Source: Polyangiaceae bacterium
GTDB taxonomy: Bacteria; Myxococcota_A; Polyangia; Polyangiales; Polyangiaceae
Direction of reading: 5' to 3'
Length of the DNA: 64,000 nucleotides
Assembly (NCBI GenBank): GCA_023150915.1
Contig: JAKLKA010000007.1
Location: forward strand, 1 to 64,000
This document shows, piece after piece, positions 1 to 37,401 of the stretch. How positions within the stretch are numbered: position 1 is the stretch's first letter; the number at the start of each line of letters is the position of its first letter. The notes beneath the pieces were generated by a model, which was not told where the DNA came from, did no database searches, and worked only from the letters and a program-made list of their open reading frames with translations. A program made the position numbers and the translations under genes.

Positions 1-94
1 ACTCTCGGCAGATTCGAACCACCTCTGCCTTGTACTCCGCCTTGAATTGGCGACGCTTCTTCGTCGGGTCTTTGGACATTCTCGGTCGGGCCAT
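1..94 (-). CDS. IS3-family transposase OrfA, N-terminal fragment
   Basis: The visible residues begin MARPRMSKDPTKKRRQFKAE and continue into EVVRIC. This is the start of the helix-turn-helix transposase domain (HTH_Tnp_1) of IS3-family OrfA proteins, which bind the element ends. An internal start at 79 (MSKDP) is equally possible. Only about 31 codons are in the window. The frame lies about 40 bases inside a TGA-type element terminus, the usual layout for this family. Confidence 0.75.
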   Translation of the reverse strand, partial: MARPRMSKDPTKKRRQFKAEYKAEVVRICRE

Positions 95-400: not shown

Positions 401-897
401 AACCGCAGGATATAGTCGTGTGTCTGAGGCTGATCGACGCCCCGCCGCAGGAGCGGACCTTCCCGAAGCTAGCGGAAGCGCTGGGTCTCAGCGCCTCGGA
501 GGCGCACGGCGCCGTGAAGCGGGCCGCCCGGAGCGGACTCGTCGATGCCGAAACCAGGGTCGTTCGCAAGGACGCCCTCCTGGAGTTCCTGGTGCACGGG
601 CTTCGCTACGTCTTTCCACCCGAATGGAGAGGCGTGACTCGCGGCGTTCCGACCTCCCTCGCCGCGCCCCCGCTCGCCGCGCAGTTCGCATCGACCGAGT
701 TGCCACCCGTCTGGCCGCATCCAGAGGGTACGACCCGCGGGGAAGGATTGGCGCCGCTGTACAAGTCCGCGCCGGGCGCCGCGCTGCGCGACGCTCACCT
801 CTACGAGTGGCTCGCTCTCGTGGACGCAGTCCGAGCGGGGCGCGCCAGGGAACGCCGCCGCGCCGTGCAGGAGATCGAGCGGAGGCTCAGCGCGTGA
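394..897 (+). CDS. Winged-helix protein, possible regulator or antitoxin of the adjacent nucleotidyltransferase
   Basis: This 167-residue protein starts at GTG 394 or TTG 397, both overlapping the mcrC remnant stop. Residues about 20-60 form a winged helix-turn-helix: PKLAEALGLSASEAHGAVKR is the recognition region, followed by a DAETRVVRKDALLEFL wing. The rest is Arg- and Pro-rich and ends in a helical tail. The stop overlaps the next start in GTGA, so the two are translationally coupled. A small DNA-binding protein coupled to a minimal nucleotidyltransferase resembles AbiE-like toxin-antitoxin layouts, but no homologue is recognised. Control of the operon is also possible. Confidence 0.7.
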   Translation: MLKPQDIVVCLRLIDAPPQERTFPKLAEALGLSASEAHGAVKRAARSGLVDAETRVVRKDALLEFLVHGLRYVFPPEWRGVTRGVPTSLAAPPLAAQFASTELPPVWPHPEGTTRGEGLAPLYKSAPGAALRDAHLYEWLALVDAVRAGRARERRRAVQEIERRLSA

Positions 898-1865
898 AGG
901 CTCCGGCCGAGCTCTGGACCGTGGCTGGCGCGCTGGGCGACCTCGTCGACGAAGTCGTGTTCGTTGGCGGGATGATCCGCGAGCTTCTGATCACGGACGC
1001 AGCAGCCGGCCCAGCTCGCCCGACGCAGGACGTCGACTGCATCGTGAACGCGGCCTCGCGGGCCGAGTACTATCAACTGTCTGACCGCCTGCGTGCTCGA
1101 GGATTCTCAGAGTGCACGGAAGAAGGAGCACCTCTCTGTCGGTGGATAGCGAACGGAGTGCCGGTCGATGTCATGCCAGTCGACCCAGAAATCCTCGGCT
1201 ACAGCAACGTTTGGTACCCCAGCGGGATCGCCCACGCCATTCGTGAGCCTGGTCCGCAGGGTTCGATTCGGATCGTCAATGCGGTCCACTTCTGCGCCAC
1301 CAAGATCGAGTCCTTCCTCGGGCGAGGTGAAGGCGACTTCTTTCACCACGACATGGAGGACCTCATCGCGGTGATCGACGGCCGCGCCGAGCTTCCCGCC
1401 GAAGTGGCCGCGGCTCCAAAGGATCTTCGGGAGTTCATCGCCGAACGGCTGACCGAGTGGCTCGCCGACAAGGCGTTCATCGCGGCCCTTCCCGGCAACC
1501 TCGCGGGCGACGCAGCGAGCCAGGCGCGGCTTCCGATCATCCTCGCGCGCATGCGGAAGATCGCGTCCCTACACAGCGGAAAGGCCCCGGCAATCCGGCC
1601 AGGGAAACCTTTGCTTGGTCCCAGCATCCGTGGAGCCGCGGCGGCTCCGCTTCCCGGCCGTGTGACGTTGACGTCCAGCAATCTGCGCGCGGCAGAGTAC
1701 GACTCTGGGACACAGACGCTCATCATCGATTTCCATGGTGGGCGACGCTACGAGTACAGAGGCGTGCCGCAGAACGTCTACGCCGGCCTGCTTCGCGCGC
1801 CATCCCACGGGCGGTACTTTCACCAGTGGATACGAGACCGCTACCCATACCGGCAGCTCGCATGA
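894..1865 (+). CDS. Minimal nucleotidyltransferase with C-terminal KTSC domain
   Basis: The 323-residue product starts at GTG 894, overlapping the upstream stop. Residues about 22-50 carry VGGMIREL and then TQDVDCIV. This is the GG...D-x-D signature of pol-beta-type nucleotidyltransferases, close to the CCA-adding/AbiEii form. The last 55 residues, from YDSGTQTLIIDFHGG to the terminal RDRYPYRQL, match the small KTSC domain often found at the ends of phage and defence proteins. The middle is helical. A nucleotidyl-transfer activity on RNA or protein is likely, but the substrate cannot be told from sequence. It lies in the drm operon and may be a toxin or effector. Confidence 0.75.
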   Translation: MKAPAELWTVAGALGDLVDEVVFVGGMIRELLITDAAAGPARPTQDVDCIVNAASRAEYYQLSDRLRARGFSECTEEGAPLCRWIANGVPVDVMPVDPEILGYSNVWYPSGIAHAIREPGPQGSIRIVNAVHFCATKIESFLGRGEGDFFHHDMEDLIAVIDGRAELPAEVAAAPKDLREFIAERLTEWLADKAFIAALPGNLAGDAASQARLPIILARMRKIASLHSGKAPAIRPGKPLLGPSIRGAAAAPLPGRVTLTSSNLRAAEYDSGTQTLIIDFHGGRRYEYRGVPQNVYAGLLRAPSHGRYFHQWIRDRYPYRQLA

Positions 1866-1883: not shown

Positions 1884-2711
1884 ATGCTGAAGATCCTGTC
1901 CTGGAACATCGCGCACCGATCGGAGCCTTGGCGCGAGCTGCTGAAATCGGGCGTGGACATCGCCTTGCTCCAAGAGGCGAAAGCGCCGCCGCCAGAGGTC
2001 GCGGACCAGGTTCGTACGGATACCCACGAGTGGCGCATCGCAGCGACCGGGCTCACCTGCCCGTGGCGGGCTGCCGTCGTCGCGCTCTCGCAGCGCGCGC
2101 AGATCGACTTCATCGAGCCGCGTCCGCTCGCGGAGGCCCCTCTTCGCAGCTTGGGTGTCAGCCGGATGGGCACGCTCGCGGCAGCGGACGTGACCGATCC
2201 CGACACGGGCGAGCGAATCACGGTGGTGTCGATGTACGCCTTCTGGGAGGAGCCTCGCTCCGACGCGAAACAACCTTGGATCTACGCCGATGCCTCGGCG
2301 CATCGCCTGATCTCGGACTTGAGCATGTTCATCGCCACGAAGAGCACGCACCGCATCATCGCGGCCGGAGATTTGAACATCCTCCGTGGCTACGGCGAAT
2401 ACGGGGATGCCTACTGGGCTGGACGCTACGCGACGGTCTTCGACCGCATGGCGGCGATAGGGCTGGACTACGTTGGTCCCCAGGAAGGGCGCCCTGCAGA
2501 GCCTTGGCCTGAGGAGCTTCCAAAGGACAGCAAGAACGTCCCGACCTATCACACCGCGCAGCAAGGCCCGGCAGGCGCGACGCGGCAGCTCGACTTCGTC
2601 TTCGCGTCGCGCGAGATTGCTCCGCGGGTCTCCGTGCGCGCACTGAACAGCTTGGAGGAGTGGGGGCCGAGCGACCACTGTCGGATCAGCATCGAGGTGA
2701 ACACTCGATGA
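1884..2711 (+). CDS. Endonuclease/exonuclease/phosphatase (EEP) family protein
   Basis: The 275-residue protein starts at ATG 1884 after a GAGGGGA ribosome-binding site. It shows the ordered EEP motifs: SWNI near residue 6, LLQEA near 30 (metal-binding Glu), AAGDLNI near 161 (catalytic Asp-Asn), RQLDFVFAS near 234 and SDHCRI near 264 (catalytic His). There is no signal peptide, so it is probably cytoplasmic. The family covers metal-dependent DNases, RNases and phosphatases; specificity is not visible. Its stop overlaps the next start (ATGA). EEP proteins are not standard DISARM components, so its place in this operon is notable. Confidence 0.85.
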   Translation: MLKILSWNIAHRSEPWRELLKSGVDIALLQEAKAPPPEVADQVRTDTHEWRIAATGLTCPWRAAVVALSQRAQIDFIEPRPLAEAPLRSLGVSRMGTLAAADVTDPDTGERITVVSMYAFWEEPRSDAKQPWIYADASAHRLISDLSMFIATKSTHRIIAAGDLNILRGYGEYGDAYWAGRYATVFDRMAAIGLDYVGPQEGRPAEPWPEELPKDSKNVPTYHTAQQGPAGATRQLDFVFASREIAPRVSVRALNSLEEWGPSDHCRISIEVNTR

Positions 2712-4804
2712 GCGACGGGTGGCTCCTCACCATCAAGCCGAGCTTCCTCCACGAGCTCGTGGCTCTGCCCGCAAAGGAGGCCGCGCAGGTGCAGAAGAAG
2801 CTCGAGAGCCTGACGGCGGATCCTCGGCCGGACGCCAAAGTGAAGAAGCAGCTCAAGCACCTGGACGGTCGGCTGCACCGCCTGCGCTCCGGCGACTTTC
2901 GCATCTTCTACACCTTCGACGAGCGCTACGTCAGCGTGCTGTCGCTGCGCAAGCGCGACGAGCAGACGTATTCGGAGATACCGGAAGCGGAGTCGCTCGG
3001 GGGCGGCGACGTGTCCGGAATCCAGGATCCGCCCGAAGTCAGAAACGACGTCGGCGCATGGCTCGAGACCAGCACGACGTTGCGGCCCAAGCCGCTTCCT
3101 CGGCCGATCACCGTCGAGCTGCTCGACGCGCTCCGGGTGCCGCCCGAGCACCACGCACGACTTCTGGCGGTCCAGACCGAGGACCAGCTCCTCGACTGCG
3201 CGGACGTCCCCGAGAAGATCCTGGAGCGGGTGCTCGACGGCGTCGTCGGCCGACCCCTCGATGACATTGCGCGGCAGCCTGACCTCGTCGTCGAGAGCCC
3301 CGACGATCTCTTGCGCTATCGGCAGGGCGAGCTCTTGGGTTTCCTGCTGCGACTGAATCCGGAGCAGGAGAAGCTCGTGACCTGGTCGCTGGCCGCGCGC
3401 GGGCCCACCCTGCTCAAGGGCGGACCAGGGACGGGCAAGAGCACCGTGGCTCTGCACCGAGTGAAGATCGTACTCGATGCCCTTCGGAAGACTGCGGTCG
3501 AGCGGCCGCGGATCCTGTTCACGACCTACACCAACGCGCTGGTCCGCTACTCCGAGCAGCTCCTGCGGTCTCTCCTGGGAGATGACGCAGGCTGTGTCGA
3601 GGTGCGAACCGCCGACAGCGTGGCCATCGGCATCGCCCGAGCTGCCGGCGAGGACCCGCACATCCTCGACGGCGGGGAGCTCCGCGCGCTCGCCGAGCGG
3701 GCCTTGCGCGAGGTCGAGCTTCAAGGCAATTCGCTGGCGCAGAAGGCGCAACGCGCGACCCTCGATCGTCTGGGCGTCGAGTACGTGACGGAAGAGGTGC
3801 TCGACGTGATCGACGGGCGCGGCCTGGGCTCTCTGGACGAGTACCAGTCTGCTGCACGGCCGGGGCGGCAGCTTCCCCTGAACCGCACGCAGCGCGAAGC
3901 CGTCTGGCGTGTCCACGCGAAGCTCCACGAGCTCCTCGACGCCTCGCACCGCACCACCTGGGCTGACGTGCGGCTCCACGCCGTTCAGGCGCTCACCGAA
4001 GGCCGCGTGAACGAGCGATACGACGCGGTGCTGATCGACGAAGCGCAGGACCTGTCGCCTTCGGCCCTCGAGGTGCTGGTGCGCTCGTGCCGGGAGCCGA
4101 ATCGCCTGTTTCTGACCGCCGATGCGAATCAGTCCATCTACGGAGGGGGCTTTCGCTGGTCCAACGTGCACGAGTGGCTCAAGTTCCAGGGCCGCACGGG
4201 GGTGCTGCGCGCCAACCACCGGAGCACGCGGGAGATCGGCGAGGCTGCGGAGTCCTACCTGGCGGGCGGCGCGCTCGACCCCGAGCGGGAGGAGCCGGCG
4301 TACGTCCATGCCGGGCCGCTGCCCGCGGTGCGCGCGGTGGCGAGCGCCTACGACGAGACCCAGCTTCTGGCGCGCTTCTTCCGCGGCGCGGCGCGCGATC
4401 TGCGCCTCGGGCTCTCCGCCTGCGCGGTGCTCTGTCCGACGAACACCGCGGCCCAGCGAGTGGCCTCGGAATTGAACGGCCTGGGCATCGCGGTGCGGTA
4501 CATGGCCGCGAAGGACCTGGACGTCGGCGCCGCCGAGGTGAAGACGCTGACGTTGAAGTCGGCCAAGGGACTCGAGTTCCCGATCGTGGCGCTGGCCGGC
4601 TTCCTCGACGGCCCGTTTCCGATGGTGCCAAAGGGGGCCACGGACGAGGTGCTGAAAGAGATCGAGGAGCGCGAGCGCCGAACCCTCTACGTGGCGATGA
4701 GCCGCGCGATGCGCGCGCTTTTGATCGTGGAGCCCGCGGAGCGCAAGAGCACACTGCTCGCCGGGTTCGATTCGACCCGTTGGAATCTTGGAGTGACCTC
4801 ATGA
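2708..4804 (+). CDS. RelE-like domain fused to UvrD/Rep-type superfamily 1 helicase
   Basis: The 698-residue product starts at ATG 2708 in an ATGA overlap. Residues 1-90 (LTIKPSFLHEL, LHRLRSGDFRIFYTFDE) match the RelE/ParE fold. The helicase follows: Walker A GGPGTGKST near 238, motif Ia ILFTTYTNALV, Walker B VLIDEAQDLSP near 441, motif III FLTADANQSIYGGG, motif IV LRANHRSTREI, motif V LTLKSAKGLEFP and motif VI TLYVAMSRA near 659. All motor motifs are intact, so this should be an ATP-dependent 3'-5' DNA translocase. The RelE fold may serve as a binding module rather than a toxin. It sits directly before drmA, where class 1 DISARM usually has the SNF2-type helicase DrmD. Confidence 0.85.
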   Translation: MSDGWLLTIKPSFLHELVALPAKEAAQVQKKLESLTADPRPDAKVKKQLKHLDGRLHRLRSGDFRIFYTFDERYVSVLSLRKRDEQTYSEIPEAESLGGGDVSGIQDPPEVRNDVGAWLETSTTLRPKPLPRPITVELLDALRVPPEHHARLLAVQTEDQLLDCADVPEKILERVLDGVVGRPLDDIARQPDLVVESPDDLLRYRQGELLGFLLRLNPEQEKLVTWSLAARGPTLLKGGPGTGKSTVALHRVKIVLDALRKTAVERPRILFTTYTNALVRYSEQLLRSLLGDDAGCVEVRTADSVAIGIARAAGEDPHILDGGELRALAERALREVELQGNSLAQKAQRATLDRLGVEYVTEEVLDVIDGRGLGSLDEYQSAARPGRQLPLNRTQREAVWRVHAKLHELLDASHRTTWADVRLHAVQALTEGRVNERYDAVLIDEAQDLSPSALEVLVRSCREPNRLFLTADANQSIYGGGFRWSNVHEWLKFQGRTGVLRANHRSTREIGEAAESYLAGGALDPEREEPAYVHAGPLPAVRAVASAYDETQLLARFFRGAARDLRLGLSACAVLCPTNTAAQRVASELNGLGIAVRYMAAKDLDVGAAEVKTLTLKSAKGLEFPIVALAGFLDGPFPMVPKGATDEVLKEIEERERRTLYVAMSRAMRALLIVEPAERKSTLLAGFDSTRWNLGVTS

Positions 4805-7800: not shown

Positions 7801-8670
7801 ATCTCCAACCGCACCAGGAAGATGGACCGGCGCGGGCTCGCGAGTCGCTACCTCTACAGCCCCGAGGAGCTGACCTCGCGGCTCGACTCGACCCAGATCC
7901 CCGAGCTGCTCGATCGCCTGGAGATCCCCTTCGACCCAGCCGAGGAAGACGACCGAAGCCGCCGCCGCCCCATCGACGTGCTGCTCGCGACGAACATGGT
8001 CTCGGTCGGCGTGGACGTGAAGCGCCTCGGACTCATGGTCGTGTCCGGACAACCCAAGAACACGGCCGAGTACATCCAAGCGACGAGCCGCGTGGGCCGC
8101 TCCGCGCCCGGCCTGGTGTGCACGATCTTCAACTGGGCGCGCCCGCGGGATCTCTCGCACTACGAGACCTTCGAGCACTACCACGAGACCTTCTACAACC
8201 AGGTCGAGGCGCTGAGCGTTACGCCATTCGCCGCGCGCGCACTCGACCGCGGGCTGAGCGCCGTGCTCGTCTCGCTGCTGCGGCTCACGCACGACCGGCT
8301 GAACCCCAACGAGGCCGCCGCCCGCCTTTCGCGCGACGACTCGCTCGTCGAGGAAGCGATGAACGCCATCGTCGCCCGTGCCTCGATGGTCGAGAACAGT
8401 CAGGAGGTAGGCGACGCCGTGCGACGATTGCTCGAGCGCCGCGTCGATGAGTGGCTCGCCGACGCTCAGCCCAGACCCGGCGGCGCCACGCTCTCGTACC
8501 GGGCGAAGCGCGACGGCACCTCGCGCCCGCTGCTCAAGCGCTCCGGCATGGGCAGCTGGGAGACCTACACCTGCCTGAGCTCGCTTCGCGACGTCGAGCC
8601 CAGCGTCGATCTCGTGCTCACCGATGGCAATCTCGATGACGATACCCGCCCGTTCACGAGGAAGTCCTGA
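4801..8670 (+). CDS. drmA: DISARM helicase DrmA with N-terminal STAS-like extension
   Basis: This 1,289-residue protein starts at ATG 4801 (ATGA overlap). Residues 1-85 (VLDWTAVTRVTDLFADALVQ) resemble the STAS-like DUF4325 domain. After a charged linker, DLLGPAGGPEEEIVEG and DRYLVGMLAPR open the DrmA-type region. Motor motifs are FPTGGGKTEAY near 588, DELHLISG near 852, ASTAT near 890, VLLATNMVSVGVDVKRLG and YIQATSRVGRS near 1091. A cysteine cluster (CPWCGS near 719, CGDRLGTCPF near 747) suggests a zinc site. In DISARM, DrmA forms a DNA-binding complex with DrmB that blocks incoming phage DNA. The gene is followed at once by drmB (TGATG overlap). Confidence 0.92.
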   Translation: MNDSPERIILSGELTDVGYAEDLSARLRAGSCVLDWTAVTRVTDLFADALVQGLRVDEVADSIGTGTMRDELSEIVGAAFERAPYSRKPSARNRAKAAKDDTVAVWTAPPEPEPAPKSERPVSRRAQRRAPILVADVPSQEALRSMLEERVIADLLGPAGGPEEEIVEGSVRDRYLVGMLAPRRVRIEPEEVDGVEAEESAASDDGTGDSATISTPTMFPSAVGLSFVVAADAPALKVTARWGSYQRLPSETVTTETGKPKLVWKRKQVEVGVPLGPLREGALGPFRVGGDPDDVEAPAQVRGIARRVSGGFVVSLFLVNNQDEPEERRDTAWLFQPELIAEATDGSAVFLSRLGDQLPSGDLEPLAEDRTLAMLYRDRRELAVGHGAAVHVDVDPPDPRRGVRVTTRVVPASDVLQQTPPTAAEEPMLAGVVHDMKELAEATPAELVERLRKLPDAYADWIARQRQRIADPAARLDGFEDDAKSALDGCEVALRRMKEGLATLEQDAKANEAFRFANRAMWLQRVRTVFAEERRRGKDLTVADVDIPDNRTWRTFQLAFMLVSLASVTRLDHPDRNHATDAIADLLWFPTGGGKTEAYLGLAAYTLGLRRLQGTVEGRSSEHGVAVLMRYTLRLLTLQQFQRAAALICACELIRSEAEKNGNPVWGREPLRIGLWVGARSTPNKTEHSAEVLKRTRDVGFRQGSRVGGMGTPVQLKSCPWCGSAIEPGRHMRVESFASGVGRTLTYCGDRLGTCPFSQRQSPGEGLPVLVVDEEIYRRLPALLIATVDKFAQMPWNGAVQMLFGRVQSRCDRHGFAAPELGDTDHKRRGAQPATKLRDHDPVRPPDLIIQDELHLISGPLGTLTGLYETAVDSLCAWTVNGQVVRPKVIASTATIRRARQQIHSLFLRKVQVFPPHGLDAGDNFFSRQRPSLPGRRYIGVCAPGRRLKAVIMRVYVAFLAAAESLYQTYGKHADPWMTLVGYFSSLRELAGTRRLVDDDISNRTRKMDRRGLASRYLYSPEELTSRLDSTQIPELLDRLEIPFDPAEEDDRSRRRPIDVLLATNMVSVGVDVKRLGLMVVSGQPKNTAEYIQATSRVGRSAPGLVCTIFNWARPRDLSHYETFEHYHETFYNQVEALSVTPFAARALDRGLSAVLVSLLRLTHDRLNPNEAAARLSRDDSLVEEAMNAIVARASMVENSQEVGDAVRRLLERRVDEWLADAQPRPGGATLSYRAKRDGTSRPLLKRSGMGSWETYTCLSSLRDVEPSVDLVLTDGNLDDDTRPFTRKS

Positions 8671-10523
8671 TGACCGTCAAGGCGCGCCTGGGTGAGCTTC
8701 GCCCGACTCAGCTCCTCTACACCTACGGCGTCGGATCCGTCGTCGATCTGCCGCATCTGTCGGTCATGGTCATGGGCATCGAGGACTGGGACGCCAACTA
8801 CACCCGTCCCATCATCGAGACGCGGCTTCTAGACCAAGTCCAGCGCCGCCTCGGCCCCCAGGTACAGAGCCTGCGCACGCCGCCGATGCGCGACGACGAG
8901 GCCGAAGGCTTCTTCATGGCGCAGGACGATCACGACGCGGTGGGCGTCCCAGTCGCGCCGTTCCCGCGCTGGCTGCGCTGTCCTGCCTGCGGCCTGCTCG
9001 CGCCCATCGGCTCCGGCCTCTTCCGCCTGCGCACCGTGCCGAACCGGCCCGATCTCGCCAAGTACGTGCACAGCGGCTGCAACCGTCGTCGCGAGCCGAC
9101 CGTCCTGCCCGCACGTTTCCTGCTCGCTTGCGAGTCCGGTCACCTCGACGACTTTCCGTGGCACTGGTTCGTTCACAAGGGTCAACCGTCGGAGTGCCGT
9201 GGACACCTCGAGCTCCGCGAGCTGGGCGTCTCGGGCGAAGCCGCCGACGTCGAGGTGCGCTGCCGGAACTGCGACGCCAATCGGCGCATGGCCGATGCGT
9301 TCGGTCGCGAGGGCCTGGCCAACCTGCCCGGGTGCCGCGGCCGCCGGCCCCAGCTCCGCGACTTCGAGGACGAGGCCTGTTCCGCCCAGCCGCGCACCAT
9401 CTTGCTGGGCGCGTCGAATAGCTGGTTCGCCGTCACGCTCTCCACGCTGTTCGTCCCCACGGCCACCAAGGACGAGCTCGCAACGCTGCTACAAGAGCAT
9501 GCGACGCGCTTCGAAGGCGCCGAGGACCTCGGAACGATTCGCTACCTGCGAAAACAGGGCCAGCTCGGCGCCTTCGCGAAGTACACCGACGAGCAAGTCT
9601 GGGCCGCACTCGAGGCCCAGCGGGCCGCAGCCAACGACGACGACTCCGCCCACGAGGATCTGAAGGAGCCAGAGTGGCGCGTGCTCTCACGCCCCGATCC
9701 TGCGCTGAACGGGGCCGATTTCCAGCTCACCGAGGTCGCCGTCCCGCGCCGATACGCGAGCTTCATCGAGCGAGTCGTTCTCGCCGAACGCTTGCGCGAG
9801 GTCACAGCCCTGATCGGCTTCACGCGCATCGCGTCCCCGCGCGATCTCGCGGAGGAGGAAGAAGCCCGCGGCCGCGTCATCGCCCGCATCTCGCGCGGCG
9901 ACCCCGCGTTCGTGCCCGCGTCCGAGGTCCGCGGAGAGGGCGTGTTCATCCAGTTCCACGAAGAACGCATCGCCGACTGGGTCGCCGCACGCGAGGCCTG
10001 GGAGGACCGCTTCCGCGACGCTCACGTCGCCTGGCGCCGCCGCCGCCACATCGATCCGCCCGACGCCGGCTTCCCAGGCATCCGCTTCATTCTCATCCAC
10101 TCGTTCGCGCACGCCCTGATGCGCGAGCTCGCGCTCGAGTGCGGCTACGCCGCCGCCAGCATGCGCGAGCGCATCTACGCCCGCGACCCGGAAGGCGACA
10201 AGGCCGCCATGGCTGGCGTGCTCATCTACACCGCCGCACCCGACGCCGAGGGCACCCTCGGCGGCCTCGTCCGCCTGGGCACCCCCGCTGAGCTCGAACG
10301 CCACATCCGCCGCGCCCTCGAAGCTATGGCGCTCTGCTCGTCCGACCCGCTCTGCGCCGACCACACGCCCGACGCCGACGGCGCAACCCTGCACGGCGCT
10401 GCATGCCACGCCTGCCTCTTCGCCCCGGAGACCTCGTGCGAGCGAGGCAACAAGTACCTCGACCGCACCACACTCGCCGCCACCGTGTGCTCCGGCGAGC
10501 ACGCCTTCTTCAAGGAGAAGTGA
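8670..10523 (+). CDS. drmB: DISARM protein DrmB (DUF1998)
   Basis: The 617-residue product starts at ATG 8670, overlapping the drmA stop by one base. It opens LGELRPTQLLYTYGVGSVVD, the typical DrmB start. Zinc-binding-type cysteine pairs follow: CPACG near 107, CRNCDANRR near 198, and a CHACLFAPETSCERGN cluster near the end within the DUF1998 domain. HSFAHALMRELALECGY is the family hallmark. DrmB is the obligate partner of DrmA in the DISARM core complex. There is no motor or nuclease motif, as expected. Full length and well conserved in layout. Confidence 0.92.
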   Translation: MTVKARLGELRPTQLLYTYGVGSVVDLPHLSVMVMGIEDWDANYTRPIIETRLLDQVQRRLGPQVQSLRTPPMRDDEAEGFFMAQDDHDAVGVPVAPFPRWLRCPACGLLAPIGSGLFRLRTVPNRPDLAKYVHSGCNRRREPTVLPARFLLACESGHLDDFPWHWFVHKGQPSECRGHLELRELGVSGEAADVEVRCRNCDANRRMADAFGREGLANLPGCRGRRPQLRDFEDEACSAQPRTILLGASNSWFAVTLSTLFVPTATKDELATLLQEHATRFEGAEDLGTIRYLRKQGQLGAFAKYTDEQVWAALEAQRAAANDDDSAHEDLKEPEWRVLSRPDPALNGADFQLTEVAVPRRYASFIERVVLAERLREVTALIGFTRIASPRDLAEEEEARGRVIARISRGDPAFVPASEVRGEGVFIQFHEERIADWVAAREAWEDRFRDAHVAWRRRRHIDPPDAGFPGIRFILIHSFAHALMRELALECGYAAASMRERIYARDPEGDKAAMAGVLIYTAAPDAEGTLGGLVRLGTPAELERHIRRALEAMALCSSDPLCADHTPDADGATLHGAACHACLFAPETSCERGNKYLDRTTLAATVCSGEHAFFKEK

Positions 10524-11381: not shown

Positions 11382-12623
11382 CTACGCACGGCGTTGCCAC
11401 TCTTCGTTCAGCAGTTCGACAGTCTTCCCTTTCTCCTTGAGCCTCTCCAACAGCCAGGAACGAACTGCTTCAACGCCCTCGGTCGTCGCGCCGTCAATCC
11501 GCGTGTCCGGGTCGAAGACCGTCGCGATCTTGGGAACTCCGCTGAGCTTCGCTTCAAGGTCGTCCCACACGTGATCGCGGTCCGCAGGGCGTACCAGGTC
11601 AAGCTTGTTTGCACACACAAGTAGCGGGCGCTGGAACCCTCCTACCTTTCGGCAAATTTCCACGTCCGTATTCGTGCATCCCCGGTTCATGTCGACGATG
11701 ACGAGAAACACGTCAGTGTGGTGAAGGAAGTCATCGGTCGCCGCCTCCACGTCCGCTCTGTAGTCGTTGAACCCGGGATAGTTGACGACCTTAATCGTCC
11801 CTGCCGGGTCGCTCTCGTAGACCTCGGCGTGGGTGGTGGAGCCAGCGACGGGGTCGATGTTCGCTGGGATGCCGAACACTGCCCGCAACGCCGAGTCCTT
11901 CCCGGTCGCCCCGTCGCCGACGATGCCGATGGTGATTCGCATCGACAGCATCTGTCTGAGGTATGCGACGTGGACGACCGCCGGCACGGTCTTGCGGTAC
12001 GCCGGTCCCGCCAGATCCAGCGCGAGCCACGCGCCGCTGACGATCCAGCCGACGGGCCCCAGCGCGAGCCCGATCATTCGCGTCAAGGCCGCATTCGCTG
12101 CTAGTGACAGCCCGCGCCCAAGCAGTGCGCGCGCGACGTAGTTGGCCACGATGACCGCAAATCTGTAGACGGCGAAGCCGCCGAACTGCTTGAGGAGCAC
12201 CTGGGCGACGGCCGCCCCCACCGCACCGACCGGCAGCGCGGACTCATCGATGTTCATTTCGCGAAAGAGCTCGCGACGCTCTTCCGGCGAAAGCTGCTCG
12301 AGCATGTCCTCGAACAGTTTTGCCAGGATCGCCCGCTCGTTGGCTTCGACGGCTCCATTCGAAGAGACAGCTGCCTTGAGGCGTTTCCCGACATCCAGAA
12401 CTACTTCCGCGTAGTCAACTCCTTCTCGGCCCCTCATCAGCGACGCGAGATCGTGGCTACCCGCAAGACGGAGCTCGGAGGCTATCTTCTTCGCACGCTC
12501 GCGCTTTGCGGAGGGCAGTGACGAGGCGTCGAGCTTCAAGTAAGTGATGAGAGGCTCTACGTCAGCCTCGTTGAACTCGAGGCTTCGATGGATGACGTCG
12601 ATGATGTCGAGTACCTTGGCCAT
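11382..12623 (-). CDS. YaaW-like (UPF0174) domain fused to a dynamin/Era-like GTPase
   Basis: The 413-residue product starts at ATG 12623. Residues 1-225 resemble YaaW/UPF0174 proteins: SHDLASLMRGREGVDYAEVV, then a hydrophobic stretch (about 150-205) ending AGPAYRKTVPAVVHVAYLRQ. A GTPase domain follows. G1 is GDGATGKDS near 236, the G3 region is VNYPGFNDY (Asn-Tyr-Pro-Gly, not the usual Asp-x-x-Gly) and G4 is CANKLDLV near 337. It is probably membrane-associated. It is encoded with a small glycine-zipper protein behind a sigma-54-type promoter, next to a divergent sigma-54 activator. The role is unknown; a membrane-stress or defence function is inferred. Confidence 0.75.
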   Translation of the reverse strand: MAKVLDIIDVIHRSLEFNEADVEPLITYLKLDASSLPSAKRERAKKIASELRLAGSHDLASLMRGREGVDYAEVVLDVGKRLKAAVSSNGAVEANERAILAKLFEDMLEQLSPEERRELFREMNIDESALPVGAVGAAVAQVLLKQFGGFAVYRFAVIVANYVARALLGRGLSLAANAALTRMIGLALGPVGWIVSGAWLALDLAGPAYRKTVPAVVHVAYLRQMLSMRITIGIVGDGATGKDSALRAVFGIPANIDPVAGSTTHAEVYESDPAGTIKVVNYPGFNDYRADVEAATDDFLHHTDVFLVIVDMNRGCTNTDVEICRKVGGFQRPLLVCANKLDLVRPADRDHVWDDLEAKLSGVPKIATVFDPDTRIDGATTEGVEAVRSWLLERLKEKGKTVELLNEEWQRRA

Positions 12624-12640
12624 GTGATTCCTCCCGATAC

Positions 12641-12991
12641 TCAGACCACCAACAGAAGCTCGGACTCCGAGGGATTCCAGACAATCCGGTGGTGAGCCAC
12701 CGTGTATCCGGCGATGGCGCCGACGCCGGCTCCGACGACGGCCCCGGGGGGCCCAGCCACGAGGTACCCGAAGCCTGCCCCGATCAAAACGCCGGCGGAG
12801 GTGAAAAGCGCAAGACGGGTCCCGTCCGGGCGGATGACTTCGATTCGCACGTCGTGTTCGCGGCAGTAGCACTCGAGCCAACGCAGCAGGTCGTTCTCGA
12901 GGGCAGGGTTGACCGTGAAGCGTGCCGATGAACCTACGCGAATGAACGGGGCCAGCTTGTGTAGCTGGTTGTGCTTCTGGATATTGGCCAT
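12641..12991 (-). CDS. Small glycine-zipper membrane protein
   Basis: The 116-residue protein starts at ATG 12991 after a strong AAGGAGG site. The N-terminal 60 residues are soluble (ECYCREHDVRIEVIRPDGTR). Residues about 70-100 form a hydrophobic glycine-zipper segment (GVLIGAGFGYLVAGPPGAVV, then GAGVGAIAG), a pattern that packs or oligomerises in membranes. It lies 17 bases upstream of the YaaW-like GTPase gene in the same operon, so the two may act together at the membrane. No known family is recognised. Confidence 0.7.
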   Translation of the reverse strand: MANIQKHNQLHKLAPFIRVGSSARFTVNPALENDLLRWLECYCREHDVRIEVIRPDGTRLALFTSAGVLIGAGFGYLVAGPPGAVVGAGVGAIAGYTVAHHRIVWNPSESELLLVV

Positions 12992-13025
12992 GAGGGCCTC
13001 CTTTTCGGATTGACGACGAAGCATC

Positions 13026-13042
13026 AGCAAGCCCCGTGCCCT
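13026..13042 (-). promoter_or_regulatory. Sigma-54 (-24/-12) promoter for the GTPase operon
   Basis: On the minus strand the site reads GGGCACG, four bases (GGGC), TTGCT. The consensus is TGGCACG-N4-TTGCW, so the invariant GG and GC and the spacing are exact and only the first T differs. Transcription would start near 13015, about 24 bases before the start codon at 12991. A sigma-54 activator gene begins 96 bases away on the other strand, which supports function. Confidence 0.8.
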
Positions 13043-13137
13043 GGGTGCGCGAGGGCGACAGGCTTGGACAAATATCTGAAAGTGCAGCGATTAGCTCCTG
13101 GCTTGCGGCGCACGAAATGAGCAAATAGTCTCAGGCG

Positions 13138-14838
13138 ATGAGCAAAAGTGCTCGATACCGAGTTATTTGGCTTGGAGAGCACCGCGGGCGGTTACTGGCA
13201 GGGGCGACCGTGAGCTACCGCTGTCCCCTGTCGGCCGCCGAGAGGCCGATCGTATCGAGGGTGGACGGTACGAGACTGGAACTTCAGCCCGCAAGCTGGG
13301 GGATCGCCGGTGTCCAGGAGGCGGTGCGCCGGTGCGAGTGGAACGCGGAGGTTCAACGAGTAGCGCAGCGCGGACCGCGCGAAGTTCTGCAAGCCGAGGG
13401 TCGCGATCCTGCGGAACTCCTTCGTGCGCCGCGGCATGTTGGCGACTCCGTTCCACCGCACGTTCGCGAGCTCGAGGCAAAGGCTGAGGAGATCGTCTAC
13501 GCCAAGACCGTCTTTGTTCTTCCTGAGCGGGTGGGGAGCGGTTCGCGCGAACTTGGGGCGACGACCGCCTTCGTTTCGAGTGTCGTTGAACAGCTGACCC
13601 ACGGCGCGAGCAGTCGCTTGGTCGACGGCGAATTCGTTTGTCACATTGGCGTGGCCTTCATTCCAAGCAAGCCAGCGGCAGCCCCTCAAGATGCCGAGGC
13701 TGACGTGAACGTGCGCGACAATCTCTTCGGTCAAGCGATCGCATCGATTTCAATGTCGGCCGAGCAACGAGTCCGTCGCTGGCTTCGTCCAGGCCCCATC
13801 TTGTTCCAAGGGCCAAGTGGATCCGGAAAGAGCGCGGCCGCCGCTCGGCTCGGCCGGGAGCGCCCTGGCCCGTTCGTTCACGTCAACGTGAGCGCGATAC
13901 CGGAGACCCTCGTCGAGTCTCGCATGCGCGGCCATGCAAAGGGCTCCTTCACCGGTGCGAACAAGGCTGCGAAAGGCTGGTTCGAAAACGCCCACCGCGG
14001 GACATTACTTCTCGATGAGTTCCAGAAGGCCGAGGAGTGGGTTCAGACACAGCTTCTCGACCTACTGTCCGCAACATCAGACACCGTGACCGTCGCTCGG
14101 ATGGGCGAGGACGAGAAGCGCCGCGTTTGTGATGTGAAGGTGGTCATTGCGCTGAACGAGCAGCTCTCCGACCTGATTGAGCAGAAACGCTTTCGGCAGG
14201 ACCTGGCGAATCGAGTTCGCCACATTGAGAGCTTCCCGCCGCTTGACGACATCACGTCAGGTAGAGAACCAGTTCCGCGTGGGATGAGCGTTGAAGCGTA
14301 TCTCGCGGCGCTGCTCGTCGCGTTTCGGTGGCGCTTTGCGCTTCTGTCCGTAGCAGCGGGCGACGACACCACCGCAGACCCGACGCCTCACGTACGGTCG
14401 CTCGTGCCATCGTTTTCGAACGAGCTGATTGCAGTGCTTCGCCGTCGCAGCTGGCGCGGCAACTACCGCGAGCTGGAGCGCCTGGCGGCCGATCTGTTCG
14501 AAGACCTGGACCGAAGTCAACGCGGTAGAGCGGAGGCCAGCCTTCTCCCGTCCGATGGAGTCTCCTTTGCTCCTGGTGACGCCGACGCCGTCGAGGCAGA
14601 GGGCCGCGCCGTGGCACTTCGCCAAAGGTCAAAAGTCGTTGACGCCTTGGAGCGCGCGCTGTTGCTGCACGACTTCGTGCTGAGCCGGGTTGTCGAAGAG
14701 GTGGAACTGAGGGACTACAAGATCTCTACTCGGAGAACGCTCGTGCGGCGGCTCATCGCTCACGAGACCGAGTTCTCGCCGGAAGTGCGTGAGAAGTCGA
14801 AGTTCCGGCGCATCGTTGAGCGCTCGCGCAGTCCTTGA
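13138..14838 (+). CDS. Sigma-54-dependent AAA+ transcriptional activator with unrecognised sensor domain
   Basis: The 566-residue protein starts at ATG 13138. Residues 1-180 form an N-terminal domain of no recognised family; no receiver, GAF, PAS or FHA signature is seen. The AAA+ core has Walker A QGPSGSGKSAAA near 225, KGSFTGANK near 267 (sigma-54 contact loop GSFTGA instead of GAFTGA), Walker B GTLLLDEF near 290, and an arginine-finger region FRQDLANRV near 352. WRGNYRELERLAADL near 440 replaces the usual WPGNVREL. The C-terminal 90 residues would bind DNA but no standard Fis helix-turn-helix is obvious. It is divergent from the sigma-54-promoted GTPase operon and is the likely activator of it. 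Confidence 0.88.
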   Translation: MSKSARYRVIWLGEHRGRLLAGATVSYRCPLSAAERPIVSRVDGTRLELQPASWGIAGVQEAVRRCEWNAEVQRVAQRGPREVLQAEGRDPAELLRAPRHVGDSVPPHVRELEAKAEEIVYAKTVFVLPERVGSGSRELGATTAFVSSVVEQLTHGASSRLVDGEFVCHIGVAFIPSKPAAAPQDAEADVNVRDNLFGQAIASISMSAEQRVRRWLRPGPILFQGPSGSGKSAAAARLGRERPGPFVHVNVSAIPETLVESRMRGHAKGSFTGANKAAKGWFENAHRGTLLLDEFQKAEEWVQTQLLDLLSATSDTVTVARMGEDEKRRVCDVKVVIALNEQLSDLIEQKRFRQDLANRVRHIESFPPLDDITSGREPVPRGMSVEAYLAALLVAFRWRFALLSVAAGDDTTADPTPHVRSLVPSFSNELIAVLRRRSWRGNYRELERLAADLFEDLDRSQRGRAEASLLPSDGVSFAPGDADAVEAEGRAVALRQRSKVVDALERALLLHDFVLSRVVEEVELRDYKISTRRTLVRRLIAHETEFSPEVREKSKFRRIVERSRSP

Positions 14839-15696: not shown

Positions 15697-15781
15697 CTTT
15701 CGGAGCTGACCTGTTTTGGTGCTCAGCGCGGTCGTAGAACCTCAGGGTCGGCGGCAAGAGCTAAGCCGCCCTGGAGGACCA

Positions 15782-16024
15782 ATGCGCACCAAAGAACCGA
15801 GCCCTGCAGAGCAAGACGACGCCCTCTGGGACGCCCAGGACGTGGCTACCTACCTGAAGGTCAGTCGCAGCTGGGTGTACCAGCGCGTCGAAGCCGGCCA
15901 GCTCCCCTGCCTTCGCATCGGCGGCTTGCTCCGCTTCGACCCCGCTACGATCCGTGCCTGCGCACGCGGCGAGCAGCGCGTGCAGGCCCGCGTGGTATCC
16001 TTGAGCTCCCGACGGAGTTTCTGA
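15782..16024 (+). CDS. Excisionase-like helix-turn-helix protein
   Basis: The 80-residue protein starts at ATG 15782 after CTGGAGG. Residues 20-60 (LWDAQDVATYLKVSRSWVYQ, then RVEAGQLPCLRIGGLLRFD) are a MerR-like HTH_17/excisionase domain that binds DNA and bends it or regulates integrase genes. It ends four bases before the integrase start, as in many integrative elements. It probably directs excision or represses the integrase; which one cannot be told from sequence. Confidence 0.85.
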   Translation: MRTKEPSPAEQDDALWDAQDVATYLKVSRSWVYQRVEAGQLPCLRIGGLLRFDPATIRACARGEQRVQARVVSLSSRRSF

Positions 16025-16027
16025 GCA

Positions 16028-17431
16028 ATGGCCTCGGTCTATCGGCGCGCAGACAAGTGGTACCTGCGGTACCGAGACCGGCATGGCCGGTGGCGCGACC
16101 GCGTCTCCATGGCGCGCACCAAGGCCGAGGCGAAGCGCCTGGCCATCGAGCTCGAGCTCCGGTCAGAGCGAGAGCGGCTCGGCCTGGAGGTTCCCAGGGA
16201 GCAGGACGACCGCACCGTGGACGACTTGCTCACCTGGTGGCTCGAGACGTACTCGAAGGGCAGCCCCTCGCATGACAGGAACCGCGCGACCGTGGAGAAG
16301 AACCTGCTCGGGAACGAGCTGGGGAAGACCCGCCTCGACGACCTGACCCCCGGGCAGATCGAGATCTTCCTGCAGGCCCGCTCGGCCGACCTGGCGCCCC
16401 AGAGCCTGAACCACCTGCGCCGGTTCATCCTGACGGCCTTCAACCGGGCGAAGGCAGCCGGGAAGTGGCGCGGACCGAACCCCGCGGCCGAGGTCGCCAG
16501 GCGCAAGGTGCCGAAGAGGCTGCCCAGCTTTCTGTCCGCGGCCGAGGTCCCCAAGGTGTTGGCGGCGCTGGCGCCGCGCTGGCGGCCGGTCTTTGCTACG
16601 GCGGTCTACACGGGGATGCGCCGCGGCGAGCTGCTCGGGCTCCGCAAGCGCGACGTGGACTTCCAGGCCGGCCTGATCCAGGTCACCCGCTCGCACGCCG
16701 CCGACACCACCAAGGGCATGCACGCCGACGCCATCCCCATCGCGACGGAGCTCGTAGCGTACCTGCGCGAAGCCTTCGCCCGCTCGCCCTCCGACCTGGT
16801 CTTCCCGAAGGCCAACGGCGCCATGATGCGCCCGGACGTGGCGCTCGAGGGCGTCCTGCGGCGCGCCATGGCCCGTGCCGGCATCGTGGAGGGCTACCAG
16901 CACGTCTGCCGCAAGAAGGGCTGCAAGCACGTCGAGCACGTCCTGGACGCCTCAGAGAGGCGCTGCCCGGTCCACAATCACCGCCTCTGGCCCAAGGCCA
17001 AGGTCCGCCCCATCCGCTTCCACGACCTCCGGCACACGACGGCCAGCCTGTTGATGATGGCCGGGGCGAGCACGGCGTCCGTGCAGCGCATCCTGCGCCA
17101 CAGGGACCCGCGCGTGACCGTCGAGGTCTACGGGCATCTCACGCCGGGGTTTCTCCGCGCTGAGGTCGATCGGCTGCGCTTCAATCCGAATCCCCCCGAG
17201 CAGGAAGAGCAGCGTCATGCCGAACCGGTGGCGGTGAACGCCGATTCGTTTGCTGCATCCTTGCTGCAGGGCGCGGACGACGAGCCCTCGGCGGAAAAGA
17301 TCACCTCGGAAACTCCCGAGTCGTCTCCACCGGTTGACTCTGCGCGCCCGAGAGGATTCGAACCTCTGACCTACGGCTCCGGAGGCCGTCGCTCTATCCA
17401 GCTGAGCTACGGGCGCAAAAGGGCGCTCTGA
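16028..17431 (+). CDS. int: Tyrosine recombinase (integrase) overlapping tRNA-Arg
   Basis: The 467-residue integrase starts at ATG 16028. It has an N-terminal AP2-like arm-binding region (VYRRADKWYLRYRDRHGRWR), a SAM-like core-binding domain, and the catalytic domain. The catalytic Arg is in TGMRRGELLGL near 198, the HxxR box is HDLRHTTASLL near 332, then LRHRDPRVTVEVYGH with the nucleophile Tyr near 367. Residues 294-316 hold a cysteine/histidine insertion (CRKKGCKH...CPVHNH) that may bind zinc. The last 29 or so codons are antisense to tRNA-Arg, so the coding sequence crosses the attachment core and its C-terminus probably depends on integration state. It marks the right end of the island. 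Confidence 0.93.
   Translation: MASVYRRADKWYLRYRDRHGRWRDRVSMARTKAEAKRLAIELELRSERERLGLEVPREQDDRTVDDLLTWWLETYSKGSPSHDRNRATVEKNLLGNELGKTRLDDLTPGQIEIFLQARSADLAPQSLNHLRRFILTAFNRAKAAGKWRGPNPAAEVARRKVPKRLPSFLSAAEVPKVLAALAPRWRPVFATAVYTGMRRGELLGLRKRDVDFQAGLIQVTRSHAADTTKGMHADAIPIATELVAYLREAFARSPSDLVFPKANGAMMRPDVALEGVLRRAMARAGIVEGYQHVCRKKGCKHVEHVLDASERRCPVHNHRLWPKAKVRPIRFHDLRHTTASLLMMAGASTASVQRILRHRDPRVTVEVYGHLTPGFLRAEVDRLRFNPNPPEQEEQRHAEPVAVNADSFAASLLQGADDEPSAEKITSETPESSPPVDSARPRGFEPLTYGSGGRRSIQLSYGRKRAL
17343..17416 (-). tRNA. tRNA-Arg (anticodon CCG)
   Basis: The minus strand folds into a standard cloverleaf: acceptor GCGCCCG/CGGGCGC, D arm GCTC...GAGC, anticodon arm ACGGC-CTCCGGA-GCCGT with anticodon CCG, and T arm AGAGG-TTCGAAT-CCTCT. 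CCA is not encoded. The 3' end faces the integrase, which is the usual target half for tyrosine integrases. Confidence 0.95.
17343..17431. other. Attachment site region (island/chromosome junction)
   Basis: The integrase frame and the 3' half of tRNA-Arg overlap here. The tRNA 3' end points into the island, so the crossover core should lie within roughly 17343-17380. The matching copy at the other end of the island is not in the window. Confidence 0.65.
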
Positions 17432-36070: not shown

Positions 36071-37401
36071 CAGGCCTTCTCCTCTGCGGGCTCATCTTCC
36101 AGTTTTGCGCTGGTCTTGCCGCCGGGCACCACGTTCATGTCGGCGTGCGCCTCGCTGTCCACGCGGCGGTGACCGCTGAGCGCCAGCAAGCACAAGAGCA
36201 GGAATCGGAGTGAGATGATGAGCAGCCCGATGGGGAACACCAGGTTGGCGGCCTTGACCAGCTCGCCGCGGGGCTCACCCTTCTCGGGCACCACCACGAT
36301 CGGGGTCTTCTTCATGTCGCCGCTGGTCTTGAGCAGCTTGGCCTTGTCGGCGCCGTAGCGCTCGGCAAAGCCGTTCTCGTCGACCCAGGCGTTCCAGGCG
36401 TTCGAGTCCATCCACTCGGAGTAGCGCTCGCCCTTCATCACGTGGGGGAGCGTCTTCAGGTCCAGCGCGATCTGCTTGCGCGCGACGAAGACGTGCTCGC
36501 CCAGCTTGGTCGTCACCGCCGACACCTTCTCGCCGGCAGACGCCTCGGCGCGGGCGTCGAACTCGTCGATGGCGATGTGGTCGAAGAAACCCCACGCCGC
36601 GATGCCGACGATGATGCTGGCGCCGAGCCAGCCGGTGACCACCACCGGCAGGCGGTGCTTCGGCCTCAGATACCGGGTGAGCAAGTCGATGGTGATGTGC
36701 TTGCCGGCGGCGGTGGCCAGCGAGCCGCCGAGCAAGGTCAGCAAGAGCGTGAGCCGCGTGCCCACCCCCCGCAGGCCCCCGAGCAGGGTCAGGAACGACG
36801 CTTGCTGGTACCAGTTGAGCAGGTTCGACGCCCAGTCGACGCCGACGTTGCCCCATGTCTTGGCGAGCAGCAGGCCGACCACCGAGGCGGCCACGGTGGC
36901 GCCCGAGCGTATCGACTGCTTCTGGCTCTTGAGCGCGAAGTGCGCGGCAAGCCCGAGGACCAGCGCACCCGACAGCGCCCGGAACACCAGGCCTGCCTTG
37001 CTGCTGCCCTCGGCCGCGGTCGACAGCCCCTTGAGCCCCACCCACGCCGAGAGCACCAAGATCTCGAGCAGCACCACCACGGCGCAGAGCCACATCTCCC
37101 ACTTGGTCCAGGCGGCGTCTGCCCGCACGAACGGCAGGCCCCAGGCGGCGCCGGGGCGTTCGGGGGGCGGCTCGGCGTGGACCTCGGGCCTCGGGGGCGC
37201 GGCGGGCTTCGCTTCGGCGTCCTCGCTGGGCTCGCCCGCGGCCGGTTCGGCTTCGGGGTCCGCGGGGGCGCCCGGGTCGGGCGCGTCTGGCGCGGTGGAC
37301 CCCTCTTCGGGGTCGGGCGCCGCCTCGGGCCCCGCCTCGGCGGGCTCGGCGGCGCCGGCCTCCCCGTCCTTCGTGTCGCGATCGTCGTCCTTTTCCGCCA
37401 T
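36070..37401 (-). CDS. dctQ: TRAP transporter small permease (DctQ), enlarged
   Basis: The 443-residue protein starts at ATG 37401. Residues 1-95 are an Asp/Glu/Pro/Ala-rich tail (DPEEGSTAPDAPDPGAPADP). Hydrophobic segments follow near 105, 140, 165 and 200-290, including the DctQ-like GKHITIDLLTRYLRPKHR. A soluble insert of about 100 residues comes before the last span (FPIGLLIISLRFLLLCLLAL). Typical DctQ proteins have 160-200 residues and four spans, so this one is more than twice normal. Identity rests on position next to dctM and the HITID motif. It would assist DctM in solute uptake. Confidence 0.82.
   Translation of the reverse strand: MAEKDDDRDTKDGEAGAAEPAEAGPEAAPDPEEGSTAPDAPDPGAPADPEAEPAAGEPSEDAEAKPAAPPRPEVHAEPPPERPGAAWGLPFVRADAAWTKWEMWLCAVVVLLEILVLSAWVGLKGLSTAAEGSSKAGLVFRALSGALVLGLAAHFALKSQKQSIRSGATVAASVVGLLLAKTWGNVGVDWASNLLNWYQQASFLTLLGGLRGVGTRLTLLLTLLGGSLATAAGKHITIDLLTRYLRPKHRLPVVVTGWLGASIIVGIAAWGFFDHIAIDEFDARAEASAGEKVSAVTTKLGEHVFVARKQIALDLKTLPHVMKGERYSEWMDSNAWNAWVDENGFAERYGADKAKLLKTSGDMKKTPIVVVPEKGEPRGELVKAANLVFPIGLLIISLRFLLLCLLALSGHRRVDSEAHADMNVVPGGKTSAKLEDEPAEEKA

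Follow-up and report, generated by a model that had tools for sequence, protein, structure and literature searches.

An integrase gene running through its tRNA-Arg target in a Polyangiaceae defence island is predicted to exchange a C-terminal helix-turn-helix domain upon integration and excision

Insertion of a defence island into a tRNA-Arg(CCG) gene appears to remove a small DNA-binding domain from the island's own tyrosine integrase, and excision would restore it. The window, that is the whole stretch of 64,000 nucleotides analysed here, holds the right end of this island, which amounts to about 27 kb in total, carries a DISARM system and is seated in tRNA-Arg(CCG); the left end is found on a second contig of the same genome, C165. 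According to the predicted junction, attP lies inside the integrase gene, and the free and integrated proteins would differ in their C-termini with the catalytic domain present in both. We propose that the circular form encodes an integrase-HTH fusion (Int-HTH) of 564 aa, that integration splits off the HTH, that excision rebuilds the fusion and that integration is the task to which Int-HTH is suited, a reading to which we assign a probability of about 0.75. The two ends, the frames, the domain and its conservation are documented below at the level of sequence. The features concerned are as follows, in window coordinates unless a contig is named.

1-93, minus strand: beginning of a transposase orfA, located at the edge of the contig (translation)
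4087-8670, plus strand: DISARM drmA (PADLOC DrmA)
8670-10523, plus strand: DISARM drmB (PADLOC DrmB)
15782-16024, plus strand: separate HTH_17 protein immediately upstream of int, candidate excisionase (HTH_17 match)
16028-17431, plus strand: integrase, tyrosine type, integrated form, 467 aa (ORF translation and Pfam)
17247-17272, plus strand: arm-like direct repeat within int (its copy, 112 bp past the far core, is 88% identical over 26 bp)
17335-17386, plus strand: att core, 52 bp, comprising the tRNA 3' half and 7 bp (exact second copy on C165)
17342-17416, minus strand: tRNA-Arg(CCG), integration target, intact at the window end of the island (ARAGORN)
17387-17431, plus strand: final 14 codons and stop of the integrated-form integrase, derived from the host (comparison with the in-silico junction)
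C165, down to 8427, minus strand (L009): the 111 codons of the HTH_17 tail (in-silico junction and HTH_17 match, E = 1.2e-12)

The 467-aa integrase matches the Pfam families Phage_integrase (E = 1.3e-21) and Int_N (E = 3.2e-6), and its Phage_integrase domain precedes the core and is intact. The tRNA-Arg(CCG) gene into which the frame runs is the sole tRNA that ARAGORN calls in the window. A preliminary description of this DNA had stated that about 29 C-terminal codons are antisense to this tRNA and that the integrase stop lies beyond it. The figure of 29 is correct for the overhang as a whole, counted from the 3' edge of the tRNA (17342) to the last sense codon (17426-17428), but slightly too high for its antisense part, as 25 of these codons are antisense and 4 lie past the tRNA; the stop codon (17429-17431) is indeed located beyond the end of the tRNA at 17416. 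The attP site had also been placed inside the integrase frame, and the 52 bp shared by both island ends (17335-17386) agree with this, the crossover region being within the frame and not outside it. The 14-residue tail of the integrated form is encoded by the 5' half of the tRNA and the adjoining chromosome. The upstream HTH_17 protein (E = 1.6e-8 on window 15716-16024), for which ATG at 15782 was chosen by eye as the start, ends 3 bp before int, and the position directly upstream of int is the usual location of an excisionase gene.

No second copy of the core was found within the window. A search of the genome (8.0 Mb, 295 contigs) located one on the minus strand of C165 at 8763-8814, in which 52 of 52 bases are identical to window positions 17335-17386. 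ARAGORN calls no tRNA gene at this copy, which has chromosome on one side and the left end of the island on the other. The island is thus represented by 8.8 kb on C165 and 17.4 kb in the window, with an insertion-sequence-sized gap between the two pieces. C165 opens on the terminal part of a transposase-like orfB, and the window opens on the initial part of an orfA on the matching strand, which suggests that a single insertion-sequence copy, which we take to be IS3-like, probably fills the gap; in Pfam the transposase end on the C165 side gives a weak rve_3 match and the one on the window side gives none. In G022, a genome of the same genus, the C165 flank (2,037 bp, 87%) and the right flank in the window (4,706 bp, 85%) surround one intact tRNA-Arg gene and neither island piece aligns. 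This site is island-free, yet not identical, as about 1.2 kb of the C165 flank beside the core is unaligned. In a further genome, G021, the right flank (76%) and the core agree, and the left flank is aligned over 189 bp only. With a tyrosine integrase at an intact tRNA gene, a displaced tRNA 3' fragment and an island-free relative, the element has the sequence hallmarks expected of a tRNA-gene genomic island.

When the two ends are joined at the core in silico, the integrase frame stays open and gives a predicted free protein of 564 aa, consisting of the 453 residues common to the integrated form and 111 new residues in place of the last 14. The preliminary description had anticipated that recombination swaps the C-terminus, and in the in-silico circle this is borne out: the junction does not restore the codons of the integrated form. 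The new tail ends in a complete HTH_17 domain (E = 1.2e-12).

In addition to drmA and drmB, PADLOC assigns the rest of the DISARM system to C165 (L009 89-5487), namely drmD and a piece of drmMI, whose reading stops near the contig end beside the transposase-like end. Near the left end of the island, a protein with a NO VEIN C-terminal domain (NOV_C; L009 5608-7221, minus strand) is encoded beside drmD. In the window, a gene for a KTSC-domain protein, which is also the PADLOC candidate PDC-M21B (420-1865, plus strand), is followed by one for a protein of the endonuclease/exonuclease/phosphatase family (1884-2711, plus strand). A JukA-like PADLOC match (E = 2e-46) combined with a GTPase-type Pfam match at 11382-13124 (minus strand) is possibly a second defence component, and a sigma-54 activator-type AAA+ protein is encoded between the defence genes and int (13138-14838, plus strand).

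Relatives of the integrase were gathered by protein and profile searches of four overlapping genome sets (family, 108; order, 183; class, 317; phylum, 377), and an additional scan of named genomes contributed three MAGs titled Myxococcales or Deltaproteobacteria. We compared 25 integrase genes including the present one, the other 24 being 41-64% identical to it in the last aligned piece. An adjacent tRNA gene is present in 20 of the 25, and in all 20 the integrase frame extends at least 15 codons into it; the tRNAs concerned are Arg-CCG, Arg-TCG, Pro-TGG, Pro-CGG, Gly-CCC and Met-CAT. Of the remaining five, three stop at the edge of a contig or close to it (G062, G189, G526) and two have no tRNA nearby (G199, G377b). 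In contrast, among 24 distant integrases encoded in the same taxonomic family, only one runs into a tRNA gene (L037 in G008:C310, tRNA-Val, Val-CAC). The overlap is therefore a trait of this integrase lineage and not a general effect of GC-rich DNA. The L037 case raises the possibility that the layout has arisen in another lineage too. G377:C18 encodes two integrases of the family (L152 and L157) on opposite strands and at most 4 kb apart, with a tRNA gene beside only one of them. Judging from the titles of the named relatives and from the link to phage Mx9 described below, the family has so far been seen in Myxococcota.

Far ends of the related elements were sought by two routes, the tRNA fragment and the HTH tail, the latter irrespective of frame, and the 14 places that combine a tRNA fragment with an HTH were scored. 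The stretch from the core to the HTH is open and in frame in 12 of these (G000, G071, G062, G312, G317, two in G196, G202:C470, G159, G273, G457 and G330). The two out-of-frame ends, G078:C74 and G202:C50, are both places without an intact integrase: no near-full-length integrase of the family was found in the G078:C74 genome, and G202:C50 is a remnant whose int piece is frameshifted too. If frames were random and the ends independent, 12 of 14 would have a probability of 8e-5, a value that serves as a guide only, since the ends are related. Within genomes, HTH and integrase share their phase in 10 of 11 tRNA-matched pairs, the G202:C50 remnant being the exception; for the ten, the phase was worked out from aligned fragments. 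The pairs employ three different antisense frames, which the phase of the HTH follows, and this phase is kept regardless of a core-to-HTH spacing that varies from 144 to 203 nt among 10 measured far ends. When the other two frames between core and HTH are read in the 12 in-frame ends, 4 of these 24 readings are open. A far end was not found for 9 of the 20 integrases that overlap a tRNA, including that of G017. In the G017 genome, a search at E values up to 0.1 gave no second att copy apart from a tRNA-like hit and short matches, and neither a far att in 50 kb of its own contig nor a tail-like HTH with a tRNA fragment was detected.

Several places were set aside. The contiguous int tail, core and HTH of G202:C470 (204 open codons) was considered as a circular form but is treated here as a remnant, since little more than a short fragment of the int tail survives in it. 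A 93.8% tRNA-Pro fragment in G312 (oriented 36453-36500) has no in-frame HTH, and the 100% copy was taken as the far end. G189:C50 (L130) has an HTH tail, but was left unscored because of an N in the stretch and a tRNA-like match of only 25 nt. Excluded from the count for having an HTH without an adjacent tRNA fragment were L130, L138, L144, L135, L139, L142 and L143 in one set and L164, L144, L135, L165, L170, L168, L171, L163 and L172 in another, as well as L162, in which a weak fragment is 368 nt away. Also outside the count are L140, L145, L147, L148 and L146 (the place of L172), L158 and L159 (the places of L132 and L136), and L166, L167, L169 and L173, which have an integrase on the same contig and were taken by position as upstream HTH proteins.

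All 10 tails scanned match HTH_17 and two of them also match MerR weakly. The best match of the tail HTH to a solved structure is Gp37 (4j2n, E = 0.0019), which we take to be a mycobacteriophage excisionase (Xis), and the tail is consistent with a small HTH/wHTH fold of the excisionase type. The GC content by codon position is of the coding type in the HTH codons (0.69/0.53/0.81) and not in the linker (0.70/0.59/0.58). Between core and HTH, 8 of 10 far ends have no start codon that carries a Shine-Dalgarno-like motif, and in G062 the interval contains no start codon whatsoever; possible starts of this kind are seen in G071 and G159. As convincing starts are mostly missing, the HTH codons look mostly silent in the integrated state.

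A short direct repeat flanks the core in 9 of 10 cognate pairs, with one copy ahead of the core in int and the other beyond it, in most cases as two units about 11 bp apart. These repeats end 57-82 bp before the tRNA edge and start 111-120 bp after the core, and their sequence varies between elements. In the nine pairs 0 of 40 shuffles matched them, with mononucleotide shuffling as the only control; the exception is the pair of G196. In the present island, the far copy is located at 3725-3750 of the C165 reverse complement, and again 0 of 40 shuffles were as good. We infer that the repeats flanking the core are arm-type integrase sites.

Based on these observations, the cycle of the integrase could run as follows. 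In the circle, the gene would encode a 564-aa protein composed of the N-terminal and catalytic domains, a linker and a C-terminal, Xis-like HTH_17 domain, with the arm-like site and the antisense tRNA core spelled out in the linker. Integration would cut int at the core, leaving the catalytic part at the tRNA end with a 14-residue host tail (467 aa), and would move the HTH codons to the island's opposite end, where a convincing start for them is mostly lacking. Upon excision, the Int-HTH fusion would be rebuilt. Int-HTH may be the version of the enzyme that serves integration of the circle, with the HTH possibly adding a contact with attP, and the loss of the HTH may make the integrated enzyme dependent on the upstream HTH_17 protein, the candidate excisionase, for leaving the chromosome. 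The two out-of-frame ends among 14, the 9 of 20 far ends missing, the possible HTH starts in G071 and G159 and the non-coding-like GC pattern of the linker weigh against this scheme. Moreover, the expected bias of an Xis-like domain is towards excision, which makes it an awkward fit with a role in integration. For the broader idea, that this integrase family adds and removes a complete Xis-like domain by its own recombination, so that the domain make-up reports the integration state and determines which way the next reaction runs, we regard the odds as even.

The open frames might be thought to reflect nothing but stop-poor, GC-rich DNA, with the integrase reading on by chance and the far HTH being an ordinary gene whose phase matches by coincidence. 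The distant integrase L037 that also crosses a tRNA, the few other open core-to-HTH frames (4 of 24) and the linker GC pattern would all fit such a chance read-through, but it does not account for an overlap in 20 of 20 relatives versus 1 of 24 distant integrases, for 12 of 14 far ends in frame (8e-5 if the ends were independent, which they are not fully) or for a phase that follows three different antisense frames. We consider this explanation highly improbable.

An HTH at the far end could also be a separate product of the integrated state, acting as a second excisionase or a repressor, in which case the fusion in the circle would be a by-product. HTH_17 domains are typical of small excisionases, as the upstream protein and Uoi of phage Mx8 illustrate, and the possible starts in G071 and G159 would allow separate translation. 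However, 8 of 10 far ends have no such start and G062 lacks any start codon, and a separate product gives no reason for the conserved in-phase linkage, which makes this a rather unlikely account. HTH_17 and related MerR-type domains are found in regulators, and together with the weak MerR match of two tails this leads to a further alternative, namely that the tail is an autoregulator and that Int-HTH made from the circle would bind the int promoter and repress it, with integration relieving or removing this control. Nothing in the sequences points to an operator, and although the evidence separates this alternative poorly from the Int-HTH scheme proposed above, we give it little weight.

If the Int-HTH scheme is correct, the role of the swapped tail can be reduced to a simple comparison between the enzyme with and without the HTH. 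In related elements at tRNA genes for four amino acids (Arg, Pro, Gly and Met) the tail remains in frame, and gene callers should be aware that integrase tails antisense to a tRNA may be real, state-dependent protein ends. The layout can also be used to find the two ends of an island bearing a defence system, DISARM for example.

Mx8 and SSV provide known examples of integrases whose reading frame spans attP (PMC4383910). In Mx8, attP is reported to lie inside int, and integration replaces a 112-residue tail by 13 residues and yields a less active product (PMC4701971; also PMC6070905). The preliminary description had drawn on Mx8 as a parallel, and in kind the parallel holds: an integrase changes its own C-terminus by integrating, the sizes of the swapped tails are nearly the same (112/13 versus 111/14 residues), and a small HTH_17 gene annotated as an excisionase (uoi) is found just upstream of int in Mx8 too. 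It falls short in that the piece swapped here is a whole, recognisable DNA-binding domain, whereas the tail of Mx8 Int has no Pfam HTH match, and Mx8 is absent from the tblastn matches of the present integrase at E = 1e-10. The lower activity of the swapped form in Mx8 supports a change of activity in the present system as well. The C-terminal swap may act as a switch of integrase activity, as suggested in the preliminary description, an interpretation which presumes that both protein forms are made.

The closest architecture is that of Mx9 and not of Mx8. The Mx9 integrase (AY247757.2) is 34.8% identical to the present one over query residues 122-395 and, like the predicted circular form, has a C-terminal HTH_17 domain in free phage DNA (residues 489-537, E = 3.5e-11), preceded in the int gene by a tRNA-like stretch. 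For Mx9, studied by Julien in 2003, attP is reported to lie inside int. A review describes a principle similar to that of Mx8 (PMC6070905). The tRNA-Gly-like stretch of Mx9 (L077 2001-2034) corresponds to the 5' half of the tRNA, whereas the present island carries the 3' half, and it ends about 40 nt before the HTH as compared with 144-203 nt here; Mx9 is a phage and the present element a defence island. Given the 5' half match, Mx9 may rebuild its target tRNA the other way round. The term helix-turn-helix is absent from the 2023 Mx9 genome paper, and the literature searched, with the original Mx8 and Mx9 papers outside its scope, contained no description of a state-dependent Int-HTH fusion. 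Nine phage records match the present integrase by tblastn, all with less than 60% identity, and plasmids gave only distant integrases (27-30% identity). Viral contigs contained no relative of A1 or of Mx9 Int, and in the three weak loci that they gave for the HTH tails no integrase fusion was seen.

The 'suicidal' integrases of SSV-type archaeal elements likewise have the att site within a gene that is split on integration, which leaves two inactive pieces (PMC8371274). Here, in contrast, the catalytic domain stays whole and only the additional DNA-binding domain is lost. Streptococcal ICEs in rumA also have an integrase C-terminus that differs between the excised and integrated states, but this is a serine integrase with another target, for which the consulted section mentions no HTH (PMC4701971). 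Taken together, the island described here belongs with the Mx8/Mx9 systems, its predicted swap involving a DNA-binding domain that can be recognised as such, and this arrangement is found across the integrase lineage at several tRNA genes.
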